44,270 nucleotides of DNA from Candidatus Iainarchaeum sp. Lineage in GTDB: Archaea; Iainarchaeota; Iainarchaeia; Iainarchaeales; 1-14-0-10-31-34. The stretch is taken from contig JAFCDN010000009.1 in assembly GCA_017609625.1 (NCBI GenBank), positions 1-44,270 of the forward strand, read 5' to 3'. Of this stretch, positions 7,928 through 21,173 are shown one piece after another; position 1 is the stretch's first letter, and each line of letters begins with the position of its first letter. Under the pieces are notes generated by a model. The model did no database searches, had not been told where the DNA came from, and saw only the letters and a program-made list of their open reading frames with translations. The translations under genes and the position numbers were made by a program.

Positions 7928-7938
7928 ACTTTTTTGAT

Positions 7939-7958
7939 ACAACTTTTGTAAAAGTTGT
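7939..7958. repeat. Hairpin module Y: ACAACTTTT-GT-AAAAGTTGT (conserved ATCAAAA flank read on minus strand)
   Basis: Perfect 9-bp inverted repeat; same module at 11352 and 21146. Confidence 0.8.
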
Positions 7959-7990
7959 TTTGGCAACTTGCCTTTTTTAGAAAAAGGCAG
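7958..7990 (-). repeat. 33-nt dispersed repeat CTGCCTTTTTCTAAAAAAGGCAAGTTGCCAAAA
   Basis: 32/33 identical to + strand 20977..21009 inside the tRNA-Trp intron. Confidence 0.9.
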
Positions 7991-11196: not shown

Positions 11197-11225
11197 CTCG
11201 CGTGTAAACTGCGGGTGACAGTTTT

Positions 11226-11337
11226 GGGGCTGTGGTGTAGCCTGGTCTAGCATTGTGGCTTTGGGTCGAATTATATTTTATTTATAAATTAAATTCGCAG
11301 AATAGTCATTGACCTGAGTTCGAATCTCAGCAGCCCC
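11226..11337 (+). tRNA. tRNA-Pro (TGG) with ~38-nt intron at 37/38 (intron about 11266..11303)
   Basis: Acceptor GGGGCTG/CAGCCCC, anticodon loop TTTGGG|A, T-arm CTGAG-TTCGAAT-CTCAG; intron internally paired CGAATT/AATTCG. Confidence 0.9.
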
Positions 11338-11339
11338 AT

Positions 11340-20791: not shown

Positions 20792-20935
20792 AATAATCAA
20801 TATAAGAAAGAGTTTGGAGAATAAAAAGTTTTTGCTACGCAAAAACAAACTCGGCTTATAACAGCTCTCCCAAATGTCTTGTCCAGGTGTCAACTGATTT
20901 TTAATAAGGGAGGTATCGGAACCGTAGGTTCTGAT

Positions 20936-21145
20936 GGGGACACTGGGAATCGAACCCAGATTTCATGGTTTCCGCCCTGCCTTTTTCGAAAAAAGGCAAG
21001 TTGCCAAAAACGTTTTCTCTTTGAGAAAACGCGCAAGCGCCTTTTTGTTCAAACTTTTCTGTGAAAAGTTTGCTTTTTTGGTAAAGCTTTTTTTCGAAAA
21101 AAGGTTTGTCTGGAGCCAAGCGGGATGCCTTTACCCCATGTCCCC
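20936..21145 (-). tRNA. tRNA-Trp (CCA) with ~140-nt intron (about 20970..21109)
   Basis: Exon 1 GGGGACATGGGGTAAAGGCATCCCGCTTGGCTCCAG, exon 2 ACCATGAAATCTGGGTTCGATTCCCAGTGTCCCC; acceptor GGGGACA/TGTCCCC; one mismatch in anticodon stem. Confidence 0.85.
20977..21009 (+). repeat. 33-nt dispersed repeat inside tRNA-Trp intron (antisense to tRNA)
   Basis: CTGCCTTTTTCGAAAAAAGGCAAGTTGCCAAAA, 32/33 identical to minus strand 7958..7990. Confidence 0.9.
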
Positions 21146-21165
21146 GCAACTTTTCCAAAAGTTGC
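21146..21165. repeat. Hairpin module Y: GCAACTTTT-CC-AAAAGTTGC + ATCAAAA
   Basis: Perfect 9-bp inverted repeat starting 1 nt beyond the tRNA-Trp 5' end. Confidence 0.85.
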
Positions 21166-21173
21166 ATCAAAAT

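Follow-up and report, generated by a model that had tools for sequence, protein, structure and literature searches.

A small dispersing palindromic repeat that looks like a source of tRNA introns in an archaeal genome

The Rickettsia palindromic elements (RPE) are palindromic repeats of about 100–150 nt that lie in frame in protein genes and also in structural RNA genes. In the Euryarchaeota, the tRNA-Trp intron carries a box C/D guide RNA. REP sequences are defined with a GTAG or GTGG tetranucleotide at the foot of the hairpin (PMC6006769), and REP-like palindromes have been reported from archaea in a text that does not mention introns (PMC12306157). Mitochondria contain repetitive hairpin-forming elements and double-hairpin elements that are reportedly kept in transcripts, unspliced (PMC2800124). 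Translocatable tRNA introns are attributed to the Thermoproteales (Fujishima et al. 2010, as cited in PMC4390854), and a tRNA-Thr intron of Caldiarchaeum was brought by a kb-size integrating element (PMC3293823). Our search of the open-access literature turned up no description of tRNA introns made of dispersed palindromes. The origin of archaeal tRNA introns is an open question, and the congeneric genomes compared here contain near-identical tRNAs with and without introns.

The window, which is the whole stretch of DNA that was analyzed (44,270 nt, contig C2), belongs to a Diapherotrites MAG of 1.35 Mb in 70 contigs (91.7% complete, 3.29% contamination; here called G000). When introns were allowed, ARAGORN found a tRNA-Trp(CCA) gene at c[20935,21145] on the minus strand, a locus that it miscalls as tRNA-Arg without introns. 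An earlier note on this DNA had proposed an insertion of about 140 nt at position 37/38 of this gene. Exactly the coordinates it gave, 20970–21109, were recovered by an exon and BHB search, which placed a 140-nt intron after G37 using a paired anticodon stem, the T arm and the BHB as criteria. The features of the window are listed below (CM, covariance model).

20935–21145, minus strand: tRNA-Trp(CCA) gene, with exon 1 at 21110–21145 and exon 2 at 20935–20969
20970–21109, minus strand: predicted Trp intron after position 37; BHB central helix CUCC/GCGG, 3/4 pairs, bulges AG^A and AA^A
20977–21009, plus strand: repeat unit of the GCC subtype (CTGCCTTTTTCGAAAAAAGGCAAGTTGCCAAAA), 5 genome copies
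21004–21047, plus strand: double-hairpin internal segment (CAAAAACGTTTTCTC..GAGAAAACGCGCAAGCGCCTTTTTG), with two 89% copies after tRNA-Leu in L016
21042–21072, plus strand: repeat unit of the GTT...AC subtype, CM R1 38.3 bits
21075–21107, plus strand: repeat unit of the GGT...GC subtype, CM R1 45.9 bits, exact pattern match
21146–21173, minus strand: repeat unit of the GAT...AC subtype abutting the tRNA-Trp 5′ end, CM R1 28.2 bits
20912–20935, plus strand: member of a second palindrome family (GGTATCGGAACC-GTA-GGTTCTGAT) directly adjoining the 3′ end of tRNA-Trp; the tRNA-Gln intron of congeners is formed by a close relative
7958–7990, minus strand: remote intergenic copy of the 33-mer, 32/33 match
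7931–7958, plus strand: repeat unit adjoining the remote 33-mer copy, CM R1 37.5 bits
11352–11380, minus strand: repeat unit 13 nt past the tRNA-Pro(TGG) 3′ end, CM R1 30.6 bits
20828–20846, plus strand: GTTTTTGC-TAC-GCAAAAAC hairpin, resembling an internal hairpin of the Arg-CCT intron

It was found that 129 of the 140 intron bases consist of four repeat units. The hairpins that the note had described are present (20978–20998, 21011–21031, 21050–21072 and 21146–21165 at the Trp locus, with GGCAA-G-TTGCC seen by eye), and the 33-mer at 20977–21009 is indeed identical at 32 of 33 positions to the minus strand at 7958–7990. The Trp pre-tRNA fold had a z of −5.0, and 0 of 200 shuffles were equally good. 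Judged against the archaeal BHB tRNA intron (3-nt bulges around a 4-bp helix), the Trp intron agrees at 3/4 pairs, with one C-C mismatch in the BHB central helix and one U-U mismatch in the anticodon stem. Among the introns with a scored 37/38 site, this helix has 4/4 pairs in 12 and 3/4 in most others, including Trp. Because no second tRNA-Trp gene was found in the assembly, a nearly complete genome at 91.7%, splicing of the Trp intron is predicted. The window also contains, at 11225–11339, a tRNA-Pro(TGG) gene that ARAGORN miscalls as Ser, with a 38-nt intron and a BHB helix of 4/4 pairs; at this position, the intron of the congener G002 is 80 nt long and contains the element.

In the Trp intron, neither a C box (RTGATGA, even at one mismatch) nor a D box (CTGA) was found, in agreement with the earlier note, which had suggested that repeats colonized or replaced a guide intron. 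The idea of a dispersing palindrome tolerated in a spliced intron is supported, but the replacement of a box C/D guide is not: the intron of G000 lacks boxes, none were seen by eye in that of the congener G001, and the Trp gene of G003, from a related genus, is intronless. Therefore, nothing suggests an ancestral guide. Elsewhere in the window, a C-box-like (TATACATCTCTATA)GGCAATGATGAGGTTAA motif, without clear D boxes and without an Rfam match, occurs in five copies (32500, 33335, 37478, 38589 and 43599).

The repeat unit was derived by extension from the sites of the 33-mer, which is found at 5 genomic sites when up to 3 mismatches are allowed (reversed control, 0). The unit is 31 nt long and reads T5-G[A/G]T-xyz-[A/G]C-T5-loop-A5-G[T/G]-z′y′x′, the 5′ T run being five or more T. 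In the sequence examined, there were no mixtures of the subtypes GAT/GTT...AC and GGT...GC (16:0 and 0:23), and in an alignment of equal-length copies the stem covariation score was 0.207, compared with 0.051 in shuffles. In 172 kb of contigs chosen by number alone, there were 16 units, whereas order-2 Markov shuffles gave 0.15 on average. Units often form tandem or inverted composites of about 70–140 nt, which have inverted end units. The repeat matched no Rfam family, and no target-site duplication was identified for it.

Copies were counted by a covariance model, with rough E-values and seeds all from G000; because 150 candidates were scored per genome, the counts are lower bounds. There are at least 111 copies in G000, at least 74 and 39 in two congeners, at least 10 in a sister genus, and at least 48 and 26 in a further two genomes from the order, with 0 in 14 of the 35 relatives. 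The note had called the repeat a small mobile or amplifying palindromic element and had named a copy number of two as the level that would speak against this, and the number in G000 is far above it. The note had likewise held that the same intron in relatives, with no copies elsewhere, would count against its proposal; it was found that the relatives differ in their unit-bearing introns.

Within G000, units lie inside the introns of tRNA-Trp, Arg-CCT, Arg-TCT, Ala-CGC and Asn, and in one more at L021 c17161–17304 (at least six introns), and the Asp intron contains related palindromes. Eleven of the 52 best copies fall within tRNA genes or no more than 5 nt away from one (p = 1.5e-15 under uniform placement; p = 6e-7 if placement is limited to 15% of the genome). 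Five ORFs have in-frame units that encode peptides of the [Q/A]PF(S/L)EK type, the recurring form being [Q/A]PF(S/L)EK(K/A)..QK. They include the tails of ribosomal proteins L37ae and L24, of which L24 is below the Pfam cut-off.

In two unrelated genes (L021 7501–7998 and L035), a unit nested within the loop of another encodes the peptide QPLNLLEKALPKQK(V/L)EQK. The second palindrome (GGTATCGGAACC-nnn-GGTTCTGAT) abuts tRNA ends at 20912–20935 of the window, in G003 (C1, C3 and C4) and in G001 (C13 and C49). A hairpin TCGCGG-TTnCGTC-CGCGAGTAACG follows many tRNA 3′ ends by 0–4 nt (L155, L157, L160, L164, L172 and others), and a third, GCACGAC-nTAAA-GTCGTGCTG, was found near tRNAs and in the Thr-TGT intron.

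Close relatives differ in the presence of the element at orthologous sites. In G000, the tRNA-Asn gene is interrupted by two tandem units that make up a 68-nt intron; the G001 gene has near-identical exons and no intron. For tRNA-Ser-GCT, the gene of G002 contains an intron of 47 nt formed by one unit, and that of G001 is intronless. The tRNA-Gln-TTG gene, intronless in G000, contains 49 nt of the second palindrome in G001 and G002, and the exons of G001 are identical to those of G000 despite this intron. The Trp intron of G000 is 140 nt long; that of G001 consists of 67 nt of different palindromes, and G003 has no intron in this gene. The RNase P RNA (RF00373) of G001 has a double-hairpin insert of about 57 nt that is lacking in G000. 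Both G000 and G001 carry two in-frame inserts in the tail of L37ae, with one position common to the two genomes, and G002 carries none there. The element is thus structured and occurs in many copies, and close relatives differ in whether they have it at orthologous sites in tRNA genes, RNase P RNA and ribosomal-protein genes. These differences are the strongest evidence that repeats may have inserted or been copied in, with the direction unpolarized at most sites, and they are what leads us, from sequence comparison, to regard the element as putatively mobile. Because near-identical tRNAs of congeners occur with and without introns, and such an intron can be recognized as a dispersed repeat with copies elsewhere, intron gain becomes testable, through the sequencing of close strains and through splicing assays.

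We also looked beyond the lineage. An exact, narrow unit pattern matched at least 85 archaeal and at least 20 bacterial loci in GTDB, often within tRNA genes. The archaeal groups among the matches listed include Aenigmatarchaeota, Woesearchaeota, Nanoarchaeota, Parvarchaeota, Micrarchaeota, Methanophagales, Methanosarcinales and others, and the apparent conservation across phyla comes in part from the selection of matches, because the pattern fixes a G-G mismatch. In 16 of the matched genomes, there were from 2 to at least 125 copies per genome. As for a viral origin, the exact pattern was found on 3 IMG/VR contigs only. Across archaea, excision of the element left a tRNA without interruption at 17 of 126 sites. 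The corresponding figure for control positions was 2 of 109, and one of these lies in a locus known to contain tRNAs. An empty-site search with the methanogen tRNA-Leu intron gave 4 genomes, at least 3 of them with the split gene. Methanosarcina sp. MSH10X1 (G046) has at least 125 copies, many of them arrayed at spacings of about 83 or 107–110 nt. At L040/L122 (G021:C9:15072), a box C/D-like RNA appears by eye to have a unit separating its D′ box from its C′ box, with the layout ATGATGA-12 nt-CTGA-[unit]-TGATGAT-12 nt-CTGA. In bacteria, the copies frequently have the form ..TAAAG-TTTTTGGTnnAGC.. and seem to come right after stop codons (Firmicutes L055, L061, L102, L104, L107 and L126; Bacteroidota L083, L106 and L121).

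The explanation that we consider probable is that of a dispersing element, similar to REP and Rickettsia palindromes, whose copies are tolerated by tRNA genes because BHB splicing removes them. The 31-nt hairpin unit, often as tandem or inverted composites, would disperse through this and many archaeal genomes, and copies would arise by insertion or by being copied in, persisting wherever they are made harmless by RNA processing or a loose structure. In tRNA genes, the arms of the unit could form the intron-side BHB helix, and we therefore propose that the archaeal splicing endonuclease removes such copies; those located at the ends of genes, in loops of RNAs or in the tails of proteins would merely be carried along. 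The Trp intron would then be an intron site with its content refilled by repeat copies. In sum, it looks like a small dispersing DNA element is a source of archaeal tRNA introns.

A broader reading is put forward tentatively: that one short palindrome class, across archaeal phyla and some bacteria, might generally supply archaea with new tRNA introns, entering hairpin loops (the anticodon loop, D-loop, RNase P RNA loop and its own copies), possibly via single-stranded DNA. The element might bring one BHB arm, and a new intron would therefore be spliceable from the start. Several points speak against the explanation considered probable: neither a Y1 transposase, in four many-copy genomes, nor a target-site duplication was found, gain and loss are unpolarized at most sites, the Trp helices have the mismatches given above, and the genome is a MAG. 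In addition, the intron 3′ ends (GCAGCA, GGAAGCA) lie outside the unit; therefore, insertion alone leaves the BHB partner strand unexplained. In Asn, Arg-TCT and Pro, the 3′ end of the intron carries 9–11 nt that repeat the exon-1 junction in inverted form; either selection for the BHB or fold-back copying could account for this.

Such copying belongs to an account that we judge rather unlikely, in which the repeats spread with no dedicated enzyme, by template switching, slippage or gene conversion at palindromes in replication; palindromes would invite fold-back copying, which also inverts segments. The inverted exon-1 copies agree with it, as does the occurrence of tandem and nested units. 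Two methanogen MAGs (L049 and L091) have orthologous introns in the D-loop of tRNA-Leu(TAA), between which the element is inverted within AACCTTTTT/AAAAAGGTT arms. The profile PF01797 (Y1_Tnp) gave 0 hits in G000, G001, G022 and G032, all many-copy genomes (completeness 91.7% for G000 and 81% for G001), which also suits this account; mobilization by Y1/RAYT was not adopted, since PF01797 is lacking in several high-copy genomes. However, dispersed copies at unrelated loci and a sequence signature across phyla exceed what local fold-back would give.

It is improbable that the T-rich stems are terminators, or trailer or leader processing signals of stable RNAs, that the host selected and copied for such use. 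Archaeal terminators are T-runs, 7 of the 52 best copies start 1–4 nt from tRNA ends, and units adjoin the 3′ ends of the 16S (L003) and of RNase P RNA, all of which would fit. However, both sides of tRNAs are used, and copies on the 5′ side, like those in introns, RNase P RNA loops and protein tails, are left unexplained.

About equally doubtful is transposition from intron to intron between tRNA genes, as in the Thermoproteales, with intergenic copies as by-products. Units are common to several tRNA introns of one genome, but whole introns and their ends are not, and this explanation is already weakened by the 41 of the 52 best copies that lie outside tRNAs, including the rRNA spacer, RNase P RNA and ORFs. 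An artefact, in the form of chance AT-rich palindromes or of assembly or contamination errors, might be suspected in an AT-rich MAG, but is very improbable, as the shuffle and reversed-pattern controls were near 0, which rules out chance palindromes, and units recur in congeners and in Met33H, a complete chromosome.

The dispersing element favored above was compared with the described systems. Like REP sequences, it is a multi-copy hairpin of 20–40 nt (a 31-nt unit with at least 111 copies) with a short conserved stretch 5′ of the foot, tandem and inverted composites, and a conserved stem mismatch, here G-G in one subtype. In contrast to the REP/RAYT (TnpA-REP) system, it is not confined to extragenic DNA, the hairpin foot is GGT or GAT and not GTAG or GTGG, and no cognate Y1 gene (PF01797) was found in G000 and G001. 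With tag and RAYT missing, it is not a member of the REP/RAYT system by these criteria, and it is placed in no RPE family. Of the features of a MITE (terminal inverted repeats, a target-site duplication and a cognate transposase), inverted end units were seen in the composites, and neither a target-site duplication nor an enzyme was identified. Relative to the euryarchaeal box C/D guide intron, it occupies the same tRNA and the same 37/38 site, but the C and D boxes are absent. The Thermoproteales introns, as far as the cited account describes them, and that of Caldiarchaeum resemble it in intron gain between close relatives, tied to mobile DNA; there, the intron itself or a kb-size element moves, whereas here the intron is a dispersed short palindrome that also occurs outside tRNAs. 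The mitochondrial elements are likewise dispersed hairpins in rRNA genes, near tRNA genes and in ORFs, but they belong to organelle genomes and are reportedly retained in transcripts, not spliced. The likeness to RPE is one of behavior: palindromic composites lie in structural RNA genes and in frame in ORFs with a recurring peptide (in the L37ae and L24 tails and three other ORFs), although here the element is archaeal, sits in tRNA introns and has a basic unit of 31 nt. With it, archaea would gain a Rickettsia-style class of palindromic elements.
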